From Actinomycetota bacterium (lineage in GTDB: Bacteria > Actinomycetota > Actinomycetes > Propionibacteriales > Propionibacteriaceae): a DNA stretch of 64,000 nt. A program made the translations under genes and the position numbers. Numbering within the stretch: position 1 is the first letter of the stretch; each line of letters begins with the position of its first letter. The stretch covers positions 1 through 64,000 of the forward strand of contig JAIUOS010000017.1 of assembly GCA_020161755.1 (NCBI GenBank), given 5' to 3'. A model generated the notes under the pieces. The model saw nothing but the letters and a program-made list of their open reading frames with translations, had not been told where the DNA came from and made no database searches. Positions 29,175 through 37,340 of this stretch are shown one piece after another.

Positions 29175-30536
29175 TCAGTTCTGGCCGTGCCAGATGACGG
29201 TCTGGAAGGCGTTCCAGATGCAGAAGGCGATGGCGAAGCCGAACACCCAGTAGCGCTGGCGCCGGGTCAGTGGCACCAGGCCGAGGAGCGCCAGGCTCCA
29301 GGGCAGGTACCACGGGTGCAGCGCCTGCCCGAGGACGGCGATCGCCAGCGAGCCCCACGCCACCAGGCTGAGCGGACGGTCGGCGAACCGCACCCCGATC
29401 CACACCAGGACGAGCAGCAGGATCAGGGTGCTCACCCGGCCGGCCATGATCAGGAAGCCGGTGTAGGAGCCGCCGGCCTCGGCGAAGAGGATCGCGCCGC
29501 CCTTGGCCAGCAGGGCGAGCGGGGCCGGGGTGTTCGCCAGGCCCATCAGGTCCAGCCACTCCAGCCAGCCGAAGCCCAGGCCGCTGGCGAGGCTCACCGC
29601 GACGAACCCGGCCAGCGCCACGGCGGTGGCGAGCGCCGTCCGCCAGCCCAGCAGCCACAGGCGGCGGGCGAGCGGCAGGCTCACCAGGGTGGCGGCCACC
29701 GGCAGTCCGGCCACGGCGACGATCGTCAGGCCGCCCTGCTGCTTGAACGCCATCGCCACCCCGACCAGCAGCGGGCCGACGAGGAACGCCGTCCACCACG
29801 TGCGCCGGCGCAGCACCACCCAGATCGCGGCGAGTGTGGTGGCCACCATCGGGGCGTCGTTGTGGGCGGCGCCGATGAAGTGCAGCACCAGCAGCGGGTT
29901 GAGCACGGCCAGCCAGACCGCGCCGCGGCGCGGCCGTCCGAGCAGTGCGGCGATGCGCGGCACCAGCACCAGCATCGCGGCCACCGACAGCAGCGCGGGC
30001 ACCCGCATCGCGACGACCGACCAGTACGGGTCCGCCCCGGTGGCGGCGACCACGAGCTGGTTGAGGCGAAGGGTGAGCGGCGGGTACGCGACCCCGCTAC
30101 CCGCCCACAGCGGGTCGACCAGGGCGGCGAACGGTCCGCCGGTGGTGGCCAGGCCGACGTGGTAGGGGTTGGCGCCGACGGACAGCGTCCAGCCCAGATC
30201 GGCGTACAACACGGCGTCCGGGCTGAGCACCGGCGGAACGACGAGCAGCGGCAACGCCCACATCGCGAGCACGGTGCCGGCGTGGACGAGCGGCCGGTTC
30301 CTGGTCGGACGGACGTGCCACCAGCCCCAGGTCAGCAGGATCGTCCCGACCACGATCAGGATGCGGTCCAGCGGCATGGCGGCCGCACGCCCGATGGCGT
30401 TCACCCAGTCGGCGGGCCAGCCGTCCGGGGAGAACGAGAACTCGGGGTGGCAGGTGCCCCAGGCCACCAGGAGCGAGCCGGCGGACCCGGCCCACGCGCC
30501 GGGTGAGCGCAGCGCTGTCACCGGACGGACGGTCAT
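29175..30536 (-). CDS. MptB-like polyprenol-phosphomannose-dependent mannosyltransferase
   Basis: A 453-residue polytopic protein with about 12-13 TM segments, GT-C type. External loop signatures include [23 protein letters not shown] near 105-125, where the acidic residues would be catalytic, and [29 protein letters not shown] and HPWYLPWSL. This pattern matches the MptA/MptB alpha-1,6-mannosyltransferases of actinobacterial lipoglycan synthesis. The acceptor here is unknown. It follows the chorismate mutase gene by 12 bases, an accidental-looking operon. Confidence 0.82.
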
Positions 30537-30548
30537 GCGCGGCGCCGG

Positions 30549-30833
30549 TTACTCGGCGGCGATCGCCGCGTGGTGGCGGACGACCTCGGCGACCACGAAC
30601 TCCAGCCACTTGGACGCGAACTCGGGATCGAGCTCGGCGCGGACGGCCAGGTCGCGCAGGCGGGCGATCTGCTGCTCCTCGCGCTCGGGGTCGGCCGGGG
30701 CCAGGCCGCGGTCCTTCTTCAGCACCCCCACCTGCTTGGTGATCTTGAACCGCTCGGCGAGCAGGCAGATGATCGCGGCGTCCAGGTTGTCGATGGAACC
30801 GCGGAGCCGTTCGAGTTCGGGGTCGCTCTGCAC
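30549..30833 (-). CDS. chorismate mutase, AroQ type
   Basis: 94 residues, all-helical AroQ domain converting chorismate to prephenate for Phe/Tyr. RLRGSIDNLDAAIICLLAERFKITKQVGVLKK supplies the first-helix Arg, the ER and the Lys of the active site. DPEREEQQIARL carries the second-helix residues, and the C-terminal FASKWLEFVVAEVVRHHAAI is the third helix. There is no signal peptide, so it is the cytosolic form. GTG 30833 is a leaderless start. No other aromatic-pathway gene is nearby. Confidence 0.88.
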   Translation of the reverse strand: MQSDPELERLRGSIDNLDAAIICLLAERFKITKQVGVLKKDRGLAPADPEREEQQIARLRDLAVRAELDPEFASKWLEFVVAEVVRHHAAIAAE

Positions 30834-30839
30834 GCGCTC

Positions 30840-30845
30840 AGCTTA
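30840..30845 (-). promoter_or_regulatory. -10 box of leaderless chorismate mutase promoter
   Basis: Reads TAAGCT on the reverse strand, 6 bases before GTG 30833. Confidence 0.5.
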
Positions 30846-30877
30846 ACGGGCGCCGCCGGACGGCCCCCGCCCCGGAC

Positions 30878-31432
30878 TCAGGCGATGACGTCGCCGGGGG
30901 TGGTGTTCGCCGGGATGCCGGTCACCACCGAGTTGGGCGGCACGTCCTTCACCACGAGGGCGTTCGCGCCGATCTTGGTGCCGTCCCCGATGGTGATCGG
31001 GCCGATGATCTTGGCGCCCGCGCCGAGCAGGACGCCGTTGCCGATCGTGGGGTGCCGCTTGAACCTGCCCCGGCTGCGGCCCCCGAGGGTGACCTGGTGG
31101 TACATCAGCACGTCGTCACCGATCTCGGCGGTCTCGCCGATCACCACGCCCATGCCGTGGTCGATGAAGAACCGGCGTCCGATCACCGCGCCCGGATGGA
31201 TCTCGATGCCGGTGAACCCGCGGGACCACTGCGAGAAGATCCGCGCGAGCGGGCGCAGGGCCGGGTTCTGCGTCCACATCTTGTGGCACAGCCGATGGAC
31301 CCAGACCGCGTGGATCCCCGGGTACGTGAGCGCGACCAGGACCTTCGAGGTGGCCGCGGGATCCTCCCGCATGGCCGTGTCGAGGTCTTCCTGGATGCGC
31401 GCCCACGCGCGCCGGGGCAGGGTCGAGTGCAC
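30878..31432 (-). CDS. cysE: serine O-acetyltransferase
   Basis: Makes O-acetylserine from serine and acetyl-CoA, feeding CysK. The 184-residue protein is the short EpsC-like form: an N-terminal helical part (about 1-65), then the left-handed beta-helix with hexapeptide repeats [27 protein letters not shown] and the catalytic HQVTLGG segment are intact, and the end is [15 protein letters not shown] 31432 shares its first base with the cysK stop (TAGTG), so translation is coupled. It is the third gene of metY-cysK-cysE. Confidence 0.95.
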
Positions 31433-32364
31433 TAGTCCAGTAGATCCGCGTACAGCACCGTCGACAAGTACCGCTCGCCGAACGAGGGGATGATCACGAC
31501 GATCGTCTTGCCCGCGTTCTCCTCACGGGCGGCCAGCTCGCCGGCCGCGGCCAGCGCCGCACCGGAGGAGATGCCGACCAGCAGGCCCTCCTCGCGGGCC
31601 GCGCGACGCGCCCACTCGACCGCGGTGTCGCTGTTCTGCGGCAGCACCTCGTCGATCACGTCCCGGTCGAGGATCTCGGGGATGAAGTTCGCCCCGATGC
31701 CCTGGATCTTGTGCGGCCCGGGCGCCCCGCCCGACAGCAGCGGCGACTCGGCCGGCTCGACGGCCACGATCTTCACCTCGGGCTTGCGCTCCTTGAGCAC
31801 CTGGCCGACACCGGTGATGGTGCCGCCGGTGCCGACGCCGGCCACCACGTAGTCGACCGCGCCGTCGGTGTCGGCCCAGATCTCCTCGGCGGTGGTCCTG
31901 CGGTGGATGTCGGGGTTGGCCGGGTTGGCGAACTGGCGGGCCAGGATCGCGCCCGGGGTCTCCGCGGCGATCTGCTCCGAACGCGCGACCGCGCCCTTCA
32001 TGCCCTCGGGGCCGGGGGTGAGGACGAGCTCGGCGCCGAACGCGCGCAGCAGGGCCCGACGCTCCTTGCTCATGGTCTCCGGCATGGTCAGGATCACGGT
32101 GTAGCCGCGCGCGGCGCCGACGAACGCCAGCGCGATGCCGGTGTTGCCGGACGTCGCCTCGACGATCGTGCCGCCGGGCTTGAGCTGCCCGGACGCCTCA
32201 GCGGCGTCGATGATCGCCACGCCGATGCGGTCCTTAACCGAATTGGCCGGGTTGTAGAACTCCAGCTTGGCCAAGACGATGGCCTTGCTGTCGCCGTAGA
32301 GGCGGTTGATCCGCACCAGTGGCGTGCGCCCGATCAGTTTGGTCGCGTCCTCGAAATACGCCAT
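31432..32364 (-). CDS. cysK: cysteine synthase (O-acetylserine sulfhydrylase)
   Basis: A 310-residue PLP enzyme joining O-acetylserine and sulfide to give cysteine. PLP-lysine Lys44 lies in NPANSVKDR, with [12 protein letters not shown], the phosphate loop [15 protein letters not shown] and [11 protein letters not shown] all present. It begins [22 protein letters not shown], typical for CysK. It lies 70 bases after metY, overlaps cysE by one base and is weakly served by AAGG upstream. It is the second gene of the operon controlled by the cysteine leader. Confidence 0.96.
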
Positions 32365-32434
32365 GTTCGTTGCCTTTTCCCTCGTGTTGATTCTTCTCGG
32401 TGTTCTTCTTCGGTGGTCGTGCGTCGGTCGTGCG

Positions 32435-33718
32435 TCAGGTGCGGGCCAGCGCCTGGTCCAGGTCGGCGATCAGGTCGTCCACGTACTCGATCCCGATGCT
32501 CAGCCGCACCATCTCCGGCGCCACGCCGGCCGTCACCAACTCTTCCTCGGTGAGCTGGGAGTGGGTGGTGGTGGCGTTGTGGATCGCCAGTGACTTGGCG
32601 TCCCCGATGTTCGCCAGGTGCGAGAACAGCTCGAGCGACTCGATGAAGGTCGCGCCGGCCTCGCGTCCGGCCTTCAGCCCGAACGCGAGGATGCCGCCGT
32701 AGCCGCGTCCGGTGAACACCCGGTCGGCGACCGCCTTGTACGGCGAGGAGTCCAGCCCGGGGTAGTTCACCCAGGCGACCTTGTCGTGTCCCTCGAGGTA
32801 CGTCGCGACCGCGAGCGCGTTGGCGGAGTGCCGCTCCAGGCGCAGGTGCAGCGTCTCCAGGCCCTGCAGGAACAGCCACGCGTTGAACGGGGAGACCGCG
32901 GCACCGGTGTTGCGCAGCAGGACGGTGCGCGCCCGGATGATGTAGGCGGCCGGGCCGGCGGCATCGGTCCAGACGACGCCGTGGTAGGCGGCGTCCGGCT
33001 TGGTCAGGCCCGGGAACCGGTCGGAGTGCGCGGCCCAGTCGAACTTCCCGGAGTCGACGATGATGCCGCCGATGGACGTGCCGTGGCCGCCGATGTACTT
33101 GGTGGCGGCGTGGACGGCGATGTCGGCGCCGTGCTCGAACACCTTCGCCAGGATCGGCGTGGTGACGGTGGCGTCCACGATGAACGGCAGGCCGAGGGCG
33201 TGCGCGGCGTCACTCCAGGCGTCCAGGTCGATGACGTTGATGGCCGGGTTGCCGATGGTCTCGCCGAAGACGAGCTTGGTCTTGTCGTCGACGAGCGCGG
33301 CGAGGTCTTCCGGCTTCTCCGGGTCGACGAACCGCACCTCGATGCCGTACTGGGGCAGCGTGTGCGCGAACAGCGCGTAGGTGCCGCCGTACAGGGTGGA
33401 CAACGCGACGATGTTGTCGCCGGCGTAGGTGAGGTTCAGCACGGCGTACGTGATCGCCGACGCCCCGGACGCGGTGGCGAGCGCGCCCACACCGCCCTCC
33501 AGTGCGGTCAGGCGGGACTCGAACACCGACTGGGTCGGGTTCATGATCCGGGTGTAGATGTTGCCGGGCACCTTCAACGCGAACAGGTCGGCGGCGTGCT
33601 GGGTGTCATCGAAGACGTAGGACGTGGTCTGGTAGATCGGCACCGCGCGGGCGTTGGTGGCCGAGTCGGCCTCCTCCTGGCCGGCGTGGACGCTGAGGGT
33701 GTCGGGATGGTGGGACAT
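32435..33718 (-). CDS. metY: O-acetylhomoserine aminocarboxypropyltransferase/sulfhydrylase
   Basis: A 427-residue PLP enzyme of the Cys/Met-metabolism family that makes homocysteine from O-acetylhomoserine and sulfide. It begins [30 protein letters not shown]-type (first part shown), with PLP Lys207 in [23 protein letters not shown] and the C-terminal [18 protein letters not shown] are present; the extra loops relative to MetB point to MetY. AGGAG (about 33722-33728) precedes ATG 33718. It is first in an operon with cysK and cysE and lies behind the Cys-rich leader, so sulfide use for both amino acids appears to be set by cysteine supply. Confidence 0.94.
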
Positions 33719-33739
33719 TGTCGCTCCTGGTGTGTGTTT

Positions 33740-33776
33740 GCCGGGTGTGCCACGGACGGCTCCAGTGGTGCCCGGC
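33740..33776 (-). promoter_or_regulatory. hairpin between cysteine leader and metY
   Basis: On the reverse strand GCCGGG pairs with CCCGGC, and CCAC inside pairs with GTGG, giving an interrupted stem ending about 12 bases before the metY ribosome-binding site. A smaller GATCC/GGATC hairpin lies just upstream of it. These are candidates for the attenuator structures acting after the leader peptide. There is no T tract, so Rho or translation control is as likely as an intrinsic terminator. Confidence 0.45.
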
Positions 33777-33841
33777 TGGCATGGGTGAACGATCCGCGAA
33801 GGGATCTGAGGAAACTGCTGTCGGGGATTTCGGGCGCGAGA

Positions 33842-33913
33842 TCAGCGCATTCGACAACAGGCCATCGACGGCACACAGCAGCAACACATGGTCGCAGGGC
33901 GCGTCGAGGTCAT
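33842..33913 (-). CDS. cysteine-rich leader peptide (putative attenuator)
   Basis: A 23-codon reading frame read on the reverse strand: MTSTRPAT followed by [15 protein letters not shown] and TGA. Six cysteines and three methionines occur in 23 residues, with a run of four Cys codons and one of two. Its ATG at 33911-33913 is only 6 bases from a TAGTCT -10 box, so the mRNA should be leaderless and the peptide its first product. It ends 123 bases before metY. Cys-rich leaderless leader peptides upstream of sulfur genes are known in other actinobacteria and act as cysteine-responsive attenuators; this one is inferred to do the same. Confidence 0.82.
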
Positions 33914-33919
33914 GGCCGG

Positions 33920-33949
33920 AGACTAGCGGGGTGTCCATTGGATGGTCAA
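33920..33949 (-). promoter_or_regulatory. promoter of the leader-metY-cysK-cysE operon
   Basis: On the reverse strand: TTGACC (33944-33949), an 18-bp spacer and TAGTCT (33920-33925), then 6 bases to the leader ATG. It is the best housekeeping-type promoter in the window. It is divergent from guaA. Confidence 0.8.
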
Positions 33950-34004
33950 CCGAGTCTTGGCATCCGAGAAGAGCGCCGATTCCGTCCGGACATTCGCCGG
34001 GCTT

Positions 34005-34010
34005 TAGACT
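34005..34010 (+). promoter_or_regulatory. -10 box of leaderless guaA promoter
   Basis: TAGACT lies 7 bases before ATG 34018, with no Shine-Dalgarno. The 299 bases between metY and guaA therefore hold two divergent leaderless promoters plus the cysteine leader. Confidence 0.55.
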
Positions 34011-34017
34011 TCGCGCC

Positions 34018-35587
<1,570 letters not shown>

Positions 35588-35589
35588 AA

Positions 35590-35636
35590 AGAACCGTCCC
35601 CTTTCCACCCGGGTTGGGCGGAAAGGGGACGGTTCT
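35590..35636. terminator. bidirectional terminator between guaA and pspC
   Basis: A 21-bp stem (35590-35610/35616-35636) with one mismatch and a 5-base loop, followed on the + strand by CTCTTTTC and on the other strand by TTTCC. Convergent genes end on both sides (stop 35583 and stop 35645). Sequence unrelated to the other palindromes. Confidence 0.85.
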
Positions 35637-35644
35637 CTTTTCGG

Positions 35645-35902
35645 TCAGCGGTAGTCGGACGGCGGGTTGTTGTTGCCGCTGAACATCTTCTTGAGCTCGT
35701 CGAAGCCGGTGGGGCCGCCGTCCTCGAGCGGCAGCACGAGCCACAGCGCGATGTAGAGCACGGCCACGACCCCGAAGAAGAACGACGCGACGACAGTGAT
35801 GATCCGGACCAGACCGGAGTCGACGCCCAGCGAACGGGCGACGCCGCCGCAGACGCCGGCGAGGAACTTGTCCGACGAGGAACGGGTGAGCGGTTGTTTC
35901 AT
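35645..35902 (-). CDS. PspC domain protein
   Basis: 85 residues: PspC domain LTRSSSDKFLAGVCGGVARSLGVDSGLVRIITVVASFF with one main TM segment and the LYIALWLVLPLED end (about 5-63), then a short hydrophilic tail FDELKKMFSGNNNPPSDYR. PspC proteins are membrane-stress components; in actinobacteria they often pair with kinases. AAAGGAAA precedes ATG 35902. It is the last of three genes on this strand. Confidence 0.88.
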   Translation of the reverse strand: MKQPLTRSSSDKFLAGVCGGVARSLGVDSGLVRIITVVASFFFGVVAVLYIALWLVLPLEDGGPTGFDELKKMFSGNNNPPSDYR

Positions 35903-35925
35903 GGTGGGTTTCCTTTCGTGAAACT

Positions 35926-36099
35926 TCAGTTGTGCCTGCGGGAGAGCAACAGGATTCCGATACCCGCCACGACCAGGACGATCGGGGCGGCGATGCCGAC
36001 CAGGCGCCATTCGACGTGGCCGTAGGCGGTCCACAGGGCCAGGGCGGCGAGGGCGACGGCGAGGACGCCGAACCCGAAGGCTGCGCGGTCGTGGGTCAT
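35926..36099 (-). CDS. small two-TM protein between PspC genes
   Basis: 57 residues with two hydrophobic segments (about 8-23 and 33-52) around a short YGHVEWR loop, and a basic RRHN end. The start overlaps the stop of the upstream PspC gene as ATGA, which strongly suggests it is translated by coupling. It lies 23 bases before the downstream PspC gene. I do not recognise a family. Its setting suggests a partner in the PspC membrane complex (inference). Confidence 0.7.
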   Translation of the reverse strand: MTHDRAAFGFGVLAVALAALALWTAYGHVEWRLVGIAAPIVLVVAGIGILLLSRRHN

Positions 36100-37340
36100 G
36101 GCGTCACGTCCAGTTCGCCGAAGTCGACGCTGGCCGTCACGTGCAGGGTCGGCGCGTTCGCCGAGGACGCCGGGTACCTGGCGGAGCCGGACAGGTCGAC
36201 GCCGTCCTGGGACTGGTCGGAGTTCGCGACGTCGGTGGGGTTGAACTCGCCGAACTTGACCTTCCAGTCGACCTGGGTGTTCACCCCGTCCGGAACCTTC
36301 AGGTTGAGCTGCCCGGCACCGACGTGGACGACCAGGTTCTGGTCGGCGTCCAGTTGCAGCCCGGTCAGGTCGACGGTGAGCTCACCGGCGGACAGGGTGA
36401 CCTCCGGCGGCAGCTGCGTCCCGGTGGTGTAGGTGCGGTGCACCTCGCCCATCGACGGCATCGCGAGGTGGTTGGCCGAGCCCATCATGCCGGCGGTGAC
36501 CGCGGCCATCACCAGGGTCGCCGGCAGCAGCAGCGGCGGGCGTCCGCGCCGGGCGGCGACCAGCAGGGTGAGGCCGAGGCCTGCCAGCACGGCCGCGGTG
36601 TAGGCCAGCGGGGGCGTCGGCACGCCGACGACCGCGAGGACCGTCACGACCGCGAGCGACACGCCGGCCAGGGTGAGCGCCAGCCACCACAGCCGCCAGC
36701 TGCGTCGCGGCCGACGTGCGGACGCCGGGGCAACCGCGGCCGGCAGGTCGTCGTCGCGGACGGCGAGGTCGGCCGCGGGATCGGTGTAGGGCTGCGTCCA
36801 GCGCTGTTCGGACGCCGAGGCGAGGGCGGACGCCTCGTAACCGGGCGTCTGCTGCTCGACCAGCCGCTGTCGCCAGTTCTCGGCCGCCCGCTCGAACGGG
36901 GTCGGCTCCGGCGGGGGAGCGGTGCGCTGGTTGCGTCCGCGGAAGCCGAAGAACCAGATCAGGAAGATGACCACCACCGGGCCGAGCCCGATGCCGTTGG
37001 AGCCGACCACCGCGATCGTGACCACGGCCGCCGCGATCGTGACGGCCACCACGGTTCCCGTCGACCACGCGCGGGTGAACGGCAGGAACCGCCGCACCGG
37101 CATCTCGGCCTGGCCCTCGCGCGGCATCAGCAGCAGGGCCGACCCGTACGCCACCAGCCCGAGGCCGCCGAAGATGCTCAGCACGACGACGGCGATCCGA
37201 AGAAGGTTGGGGTCGAGGTGCCAGCGCCGCGCGAGCCCCGCGCAGACCCCGCCGACCATCGCGCCGTCACGCGGGCGGCTGATCACGGGGAGGTTCTCGG
37301 GCACGTCCCCATTCAACGCTGCGGACCGCGGCCGTTCCAT
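36096..37340 (-). CDS. PspC domain protein with C-terminal LiaF/toastrack-like region
   Basis: 414 residues. PspC domain at about 15-75 (RPRDGAMVGGVCAGLARRWHLDPNLLRIAVVVLSIFGG), two further TMs (about 95-112 and 116-133), and a disordered cytosolic linker. Then come TMs at about 215-235, 242-258 and 269-287. The final part, about 310-414, is beta-rich with repeated patterns such as GELTVDLTGLQLDADQNLVVHVGAGQLNLKVP and resembles the LiaF/toastrack sensors of envelope-stress systems. ATG 37340 is the first start, with no clear ribosome-binding site; GTG 13 codons later is an alternative. It is divergent from the LacI gene. Confidence 0.83.
   Translation of the reverse strand: MERPRSAALNGDVPENLPVISRPRDGAMVGGVCAGLARRWHLDPNLLRIAVVVLSIFGGLGLVAYGSALLLMPREGQAEMPVRRFLPFTRAWSTGTVVAVTIAAAVVTIAVVGSNGIGLGPVVVIFLIWFFGFRGRNQRTAPPPEPTPFERAAENWRQRLVEQQTPGYEASALASASEQRWTQPYTDPAADLAVRDDDLPAAVAPASARRPRRSWRLWWLALTLAGVSLAVVTVLAVVGVPTPPLAYTAAVLAGLGLTLLVAARRGRPPLLLPATLVMAAVTAGMMGSANHLAMPSMGEVHRTYTTGTQLPPEVTLSAGELTVDLTGLQLDADQNLVVHVGAGQLNLKVPDGVNTQVDWKVKFGEFNPTDVANSDQSQDGVDLSGSARYPASSANAPTLHVTASVDFGELDVTP

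Follow-up and report, generated by a model that had tools for sequence, protein, structure and literature searches.

Among the actinobacterial cysteine leaders that lack a terminator, the mechanism has to our knowledge been settled by experiment in mycobacteria only, where a leaderless polycysteine short open reading frame (sORF) reportedly works in M. smegmatis, stalled ribosomes being said to unmask the downstream ribosome-binding site (RBS). Both PMC9031893 and PMC13236596 summarise the cysteine-dependent translation attenuation reported for mycobacteria by Canestrari et al. (2020, doi 10.1111/mmi.14498); Cys-rich leaderless uORFs have been found there (PMC4633059), and six Cys-rich sORFs of M. 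tuberculosis are predicted to act by such attenuation (PMC9094748). Cysteine leader peptides were predicted in 2005 for the cys operons of mycobacteria and Propionibacterium acnes and for cbs of Bifidobacterium longum (Seliverstov et al., PMC1262725); the available text of that paper gives no terminators at these leaders, leaves the mechanism open and suggests Rho. It also describes the LEU element 5' of actinobacterial leuA, a structure formed between leucine codons and the Shine-Dalgarno box, with a proposed pseudoknot. Elsewhere, the uORFC-8-2 motif of cysS in Rhodobacterales is a Cys-codon terminator attenuator (PMC8632094), and leaderless leader peptides have been listed for Streptomyces (PMC8079986).

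The locus described here, a Cys-rich leader ORF 5' of metY, resembles each of these systems in part. With the mycobacterial sORFs it shares a Cys-run ORF before Cys-metabolic genes and, by prediction, the leaderless start and cysteine-dependent translation attenuation; it differs in genus, in having metY or cysK behind the leader, in Cys codons predicted to pair near the site they are proposed to control, and in the intrinsic terminator carried by some relatives. The leaders of P. acnes, mycobacteria and B. longum likewise consist of a short Cys-run ORF before a cys operon (cbs in B. longum) with no terminator, whereas Rho was suggested there (PMC1262725) and RBS pairing, together with a terminator and predicted antiterminator in relatives, is proposed here. 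As in the LEU element, a larger fold is predicted to have at its base a helix between the regulatory codon run and the Shine-Dalgarno region, though the amino acid there is leucine, not cysteine, and the text available doubts a role of leader translation (PMC1262725). The cysK-first relatives recall uORFC-8-2 in their tandem Cys codons within a uORF, a hairpin holding Cys codons and an intrinsic terminator; that motif belongs to Alphaproteobacteria and to cysS, and no RBS-masking form is described in the part of PMC8632094 available. Cys-leader attenuation itself is thus already known, and the earlier note on this DNA, which had offered control of a metY-first operon as an extension of the mycobacterial idea, was anticipated by the 2005 prediction for P. 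acnes (PMC1262725) as regards the leader itself. What was not met in the literature searched, a limited collection with nothing on Propionicimonas and leader peptides, is the placement before metY and a single leader lineage with two outputs.

The window is the whole stretch of 64,000 nt that was analysed, and its host belongs to the same family as P. acnes. On the minus strand, to which all coordinates refer, a -35 element TTGACC (33944-33949) is followed after an 18-nt spacer by a -10 element TAGTCT (33920-33925) and, after 6 nt, by an ATG at 33913 that opens a leader ORF of 23 codons plus TGA (33913-33842). The ORF contains six Cys codons, in a run of four at codons 10-13 (TGT TGC TGC TGT, 33875-33886) and a run of two at codons 19-20 (TGT TGT, 33854-33859), and three internal Met codons besides the start. 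After 123 nt there follows metY (32435-33718), encoding O-acetylhomoserine/O-acetylserine sulfhydrylase and preceded by a Shine-Dalgarno sequence AGGAG at 33724-33728; then cysK for cysteine synthase A (31432-32364) and cysE for serine O-acetyltransferase (30878-31432), which overlaps the cysK stop. A short ORF rich in codons of the regulated amino acid lies, in other words, directly before its biosynthetic operon, as is typical of ribosome-mediated attenuators. The promoter, ORF and Cys and Met codons are exactly those listed in the earlier note, and the three genes it had named score above the cut-offs of TIGR01326 (OAH/OAS sulfhydrylase), TIGR01139 and TIGR01172 respectively. The gene that diverges upstream of the leader, named from its translated ORF, we take to be guaA. 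The scan tool calls no sigma-70 site in 33690-34040, so the promoter is called from conservation: all 16 aligned loci have TAnnnT 6 or 7 nt 5' of the ATG, a spacing on which the predicted leaderless start is also based, and 13 of them have TTGACC. When both strands of the 64-kb window were scanned for Cys-rich ORFs behind TAnnnT, the leader ORF was the sole match. Rfam gave no match up to E 1 in the interval 30000-37000, and the 23-aa peptide has no match in NCBIfam.

Relatives of the leader are widespread in the genus, for which 30 genomes, deposited partly as Propionicimonas, were compared. A 23-codon relative stands before metY (17 genomes) or cysK (two, G013 and G016) in 19 of the 30, and diverged versions, recognised by eye, occur in five more (G011 before cysK; G012, G019, G023 and G029 before metY). 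In three genomes the stretch read is without a leader (G004 and G020 at cysK, G021 at metY), and three could not be read, G001 and G005 being cut off by the end of a contig and G006 giving no cysK match. A profile search likewise matched 19 of the 30 genomes, with a leader profile of 16 rows that all come from genus genomes, so that most of the matches are to sequences already contained in it; G007, G013, G016 and a second contig of G002 stand outside it. A search with metY found a match in all 60 genomes (59 relatives and the window's own), many of these matches being distant paralogs. It returned 30 metY loci, one of which (L014) ends inside metY, and a leader was read 5' of the gene in 20 of the other 29: 14 are close copies, two (L022, L023) are somewhat diverged, and in the four that have diverged strongly (L018, L019, L021, L030) the Cys codons number 1, 2, 2 and 4. 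No leader was seen 5' of metY in L006, L020, L024-L029 and L031; of these loci, L006, L028 and L029 are from the genus and the others from outside it. At L006 (G021) metY-cysK is kept behind a different start region, in which a TTC TTC TTC stretch, seen by eye, is open in frame with metY. The leaders L018, L019 and L021, all recognised by eye, have one or two Cys codons behind a similar promoter (one in G029, two each in G023 and G012); they may either be decaying or sense with fewer codons. One assembly, G002, contains two slightly different leader-metY starts (L078 on C188, L081 on C177), perhaps a strain mixture.

Among the 26 leader records, 22 (from 21 genomes) have metY as the gene behind the leader and four have cysK. 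Beyond the first gene the order varies: metY-cysK-cysE in the window, metY with what we take to be a trans-sulfuration-type gene in L131, and metY followed by a presumed chorismate-mutase-like gene in place of cysK in L129 and L135, so that in these three loci cysK is not directly behind metY; in three genomes cysK has what is presumably cysE near by. The idea that the leader tracks cysK was dropped, metY having been found with the leader while cysK lies elsewhere; among 11 stand-alone cysK loci four have a leader and seven do not, five of the seven being in genomes whose metY carries one. A uniform scan found an intrinsic terminator in three of the four cysK-first leader records, against none of the 22 metY-first ones. 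In those three loci (L103 in G013, L111 in G016, L115 in G011), all confirmed by the scan tool, metY is absent, and the leader is separated from cysK by a GC hairpin with a U tract. The window has no such element between leader and first gene, none being found in a scan of 33690-34040. The fourth cysK-first record, L122 (G017:C51), is a second, diverged Cys leader (MITMRFATMCCCRASMACPAC) 214 nt 5' of a second cysK, without a terminator; because G017 has an estimated contamination of 9%, it may belong to another organism. The proposal of a leaderless Cys-codon attenuator gains from these relatives twice over, in the conserved promoter spacing, ORF and Cys run and in the three terminators that follow the leader before cysK.

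The minimum-energy fold of the window's 204-nt leader exceeds shuffled sequences in stability, with a z-score of -2.28 and 5 of 200 shuffles as stable. Its long-range helix, P1, pairs leader nucleotides 26-35 and 38-45 (codons 9-15, which include the first Cys run) with 33733-33752, just 5' of the metY AGGAG, four of whose five bases are themselves paired with leader codons 5-6. A second helix, P2, joins a 5' arm around the second Cys run (33852-33860) to a 3' arm (CGACAGCAG, 33815-33823), and a small hairpin, P3 (GATCC...GGATC, 33791-33806), has no U tract. A competing helix, P0, is absent from the minimum-energy fold: its 5' arm (codons 3-5, 33899-33907) would pair with 33865-33872 (codons 14-17), enclosing the Cys run between arms built from fixed codons, in competition with P1; its pairs, helix 1 of the structure string, hold in 94.7% of cells, and the counterpart of the 3' arm forms the predicted antiterminator in cysK-first relatives. 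Covariation in P0 was not above that of shuffles, the arms varying too little to be informative, and the structure string used carried one stray pair (columns 64-72) of zero score that lowers the whole-structure numbers; in L030, other letters give by eye a similar arm pair, CATCAAG/CTTGATG. RNAalifold on the whole leader gave helices inside the ORF only and did not recover P1, the spacer being poorly aligned; at P2 the consensus is a weak local helix and not P2. The two hairpins that the earlier note had named, GATCC/GGATC (33806-33802 with 33795-33791) and GCCGGG/CCCGGC (33776-33771 with 33745-33740), are present as complementary pairs, yet neither is likely to be the switch: in the fold the partner of the Cys codons is the region 5' of the metY RBS, and there is no terminator. 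The larger of the two was rejected on its own account, being absent from both the minimum-energy and the centroid fold; in the minimum-energy fold CCCGGC and its neighbours pair with the leader ORF.

Support for P1 across loci is uneven. The best pairing of codons 7-16 with the 48 nt that lead up to the start codon equalled or bettered 95% of 500 shuffles in seven of 20 loci (L007, L008, L009, L010, L016, L017 and, at exactly 0.05, L011); the window's own duplex is not significant (p 0.108). The modelled cost of opening positions -35 to +3 of metY in the window is 25.7 kcal/mol in the free RNA. It is 17.1 when a ribosome over the Cys codons occupies leader nucleotides 1-42, and 24.3 when the ribosome sits at the stop. 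Covering nucleotides 1-42 saves 8.7 kcal/mol, where 60 shuffled spacers save 0.4 +/- 2.0, and the p of 0.016 is the lowest that 60 shuffles allow. Over 16 loci the mean z is 3.17, and the Fisher combination of 5e-6 is not a true probability, the loci being related; seven loci, the window and six others, beat every shuffle, and nine miss p 0.05 (L003, L004, L005, L011, L012, L013, L015, L022, L023). This wider stretch was picked after the narrower site, -16 to +3, had shown no effect over the 16 loci (mean z 0.25), though in the window its cost falls from 12.2 to 4.1 kcal/mol. For six loci beyond the 16 the stretch was fixed; L063 (p 0.016), L078 (0.033) and L019 (0.016) pass, L063 being close to L008 and L078 to L005, and L030, L021 and L018 fail. 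When the ribosome was moved along the ORF in 16 loci (14 of those just described, with L063 and L078), a position at codons 8-15 lowered the mean cost by 5.2-5.9 kcal/mol, one at codons 19-20 by about 1 and one at codon 24 by 0.1. In the window the same scan is flat, 17-21 kcal/mol for A-site codons 6-23, with codons 3-5 at 22 and codon 24 at 24, so that in this locus both Cys runs are candidates: with a ribosome on the second the cost is 19-20, against the 25.7 of the free RNA. Of stalls at the Cys codons, the signal named in the earlier note, only one on the first run frees the RBS stretch when the 16 loci are averaged; in the window the second run helps too.

An alternative reading has the same leader govern Rho-dependent termination in the C-rich 123-nt spacer, instead of occluding the RBS. 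It would suit the lack of an intrinsic terminator in all 22 metY-first leader records and the base composition of the spacer, it was the mechanism proposed for Cys leaders without terminators in the available text of PMC1262725, and the cysK-first relatives do terminate transcription before the structural gene. Rho control does not, however, predict the RBS-pairing signal that beats all shuffles in seven of 16 loci, and we regard this explanation as unlikely, while placing it ahead of the others considered below. On the modelling, action at the level of translation is favoured over Rho for the window.

In the three cysK-first relatives with a terminator, the transcript was folded up to the terminator loop with a ribosome footprint stepped along the ORF. 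With the A-site at codons 7-9, the minimum-energy fold in L103, L111 and L115 pairs the terminator 5' arm with codons 13-16, enclosing a second hairpin; the alternative partner of codons 13-16 is codons 3-5 in L103 and L111 and another hairpin in L115. For L115, whose Cys codons are at 7, 9, 11 and 18, the antiterminator probability is 0.84, 0.81 and 0.63 with the ribosome at codons 7, 8 and 9, and 0.42 when no ribosome is present. Placing the footprint at the codon-24 position, three codons past this leader's own stop at codon 21, brings it to 0.00; at codon 21 it is 0.76 by way of other pairs. For L111 the values at codons 7, 8 and 9 are 0.86, 0.77 and 0.75 and the value at the stop is 0.36, but codon 10, its first Cys codon, gives 0.17, and the 0.68-0.71 at codons 11-12 is due to other pairs. 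L103 is uninformative in this respect, with 0.50-0.52 at codons 7-10 and 0.68 at codon 24. The antiterminator is thus plausible in its anatomy and unsettled in number, the modelled values hanging on a few nucleotides of the assumed footprint. Taken together, mutually exclusive structures that depend on ribosome position give a modelled signal in the window and six more of the 16 loci, and a weak, mixed or absent one elsewhere, the three terminator loci included.

The leader is real and conserved, and it is most likely a cysteine attenuator. The fuller proposal, that it switches its operon on when charged tRNA-Cys is short, through translation in the window and through transcription in the cysK-first relatives, is in our judgement probably correct, with appreciable room for error; conservation, terminators and base-pairing potential are observed, and the start site, the stall and the direction of control are inferred. 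Transcription would begin at or next to the leader ATG, where translation would also start, with no Shine-Dalgarno site. With ample charged tRNA-Cys, the ribosome would pass codons 10-13, stop at codon 24 and leave; the Cys codons, within nucleotides 26-45, would then be free to form P1 with the stretch 5' of the metY RBS, and metY and the genes behind it would be poorly translated. When charged tRNA-Cys is short, a ribosome stalled on codons 10-13 would cover this strand, P1 would not form and the site would open, the Cys codons serving as both sensor and masking strand. In the cysK-first relatives, codons 13-16 would pair either within the leader or, as antiterminator, with the terminator 5' arm, giving the same sign of control. 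That a single leader ORF has persisted within the genus while its expression platform changed, from terminator and antiterminator before cysK to RBS masking by the Cys codons, without a terminator, before metY, possibly with a pseudoknot through the P0 loop, is a more tentative suggestion, which we think somewhat more apt to be wrong than right; a pseudoknot between the P0 loop and P1 in this particular leader is only a possibility.

Codon usage within the ORF bears on what is being sensed. Codons were counted in the 20 leader records, out of 26, that are 23 codons long and align without gaps; six diverged records of 10 to 22 codons (L018, L019, L021, L030, L115, L122) were left out. Cys stands at codon 11 in all 20 leaders, at codon 10 in 18 and at codons 12 and 13 in 16 each, and the comparison with related genomes that the earlier note had advised thus upholds the Cys run. 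Codons 10-13 alternate between TGT and TGC among the 20 leaders, and the spacer 3' of the ORF is gap-rich and poorly aligned where the ORF is gap-free; judged from the alignment, coding constraint acts on the leader ORF. Positions that keep a single codon, Ser-3 (18/18), Thr-4 (17/17), Pro-15 (18/18) and Ser-16 (20/20), and Arg-21, which is CGA in 16 of 20, suggest that the RNA is constrained too. Might the leader sense methionine, or cysteine and methionine jointly? There are three internal Met codons, and among the 20 leaders of 23 codons 18 have ATG as codon 17 and 17 have it as codon 22; the first gene can make homocysteine; and metY stands without cysK directly behind it in L129, L131 and L135. 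But the Met codons are isolated, and at positions 9, 14, 17 and 22 they vary (codon 9 is L or V in 5/20) or, as at 17 and 22, sit in or beside helix arms, the Cys codons being the constant element; moreover, the cysK-first leader of L115 has four Cys codons and no internal Met. The coupling of Met and Cys synthesis invoked in the earlier note is unneeded, Met codons being lost in some relatives while Cys stay, and MetY scoring as an OAH/OAS sulfhydrylase; methionine sensing appears quite improbable. Marginally less credible again is that the peptide itself acts, for example as a metal- or redox-binding small protein, with the RNA context secondary. It is Cys-rich and conserved at the protein level, but its Cys positions shift (to codons 7, 9, 11 and 18 in L115, with Arg at 12, 13 or 19 in some leaders), four positions (3, 4, 15 and 16) keep a single codon each, and metY or cysK stands behind the leader in every record.

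Among 198 genomes of the family, the 30 of the genus included, 42 matched the profile at E 0.1. The genus contributes 19; the remaining 23 (of 168 genomes) are all weak, the best at 0.006, and in the 11 of these loci that were read (L082-L092) neither metY nor cysK was recognised alongside. Of 80 named metY loci 79 could be read, and the 13 with a leader all come from genomes already counted; in the others, Nocardioides, Micropruina and Tessaracoccus included but L162 excepted, there was no Cys-rich ORF (three Cys or a Cys pair, among up to four ORFs listed per locus) behind TAnnnT. In 28 of 29 cysK loci fetched from three sister genera, one of them represented by a single locus, no Cys-rich ORF stands behind TAnnnT at leaderless spacing; L221, L222, L228, L229 and L231 do have Cys-rich ORFs, but without TAnnnT at that spacing. 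Within the window's own genome, no other Cys-rich leaderless ORF accompanies the PAPS-reductase-family genes (L206, L207). About 190 nt 5' of metY in L162, a locus of a metagenome-assembled genome called Propionibacteriaceae bacterium, there is a leaderless-looking ORF ending VCCRML, possibly a distant relative of the leader. The weakness of the extra-genus matches, and the fact that the bare DNA of the four-Cys run is unremarkable (55 copies of TGYTGYTGYTGY in the genome, 49 of its reversed control), are what could be said for a chance ORF beside a genuine metY promoter, an explanation that is scarcely credible when frame, Cys run and -10 spacing are kept in 16 of 16 aligned loci and close relatives show the opposite of broken frames or scattered stops. 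On this comparative evidence the leader is not there by chance.

For this genus, then, a single leader lineage appears to show both outputs side by side, a terminator before cysK and a masked RBS before metY, and provides a concrete helix between Cys codons and the RBS region that can be tested. Its natural series of leaders, with four to six Cys codons, with one or two, and with the leader lost, would be a tool for asking what length of codon run is needed for sensing.
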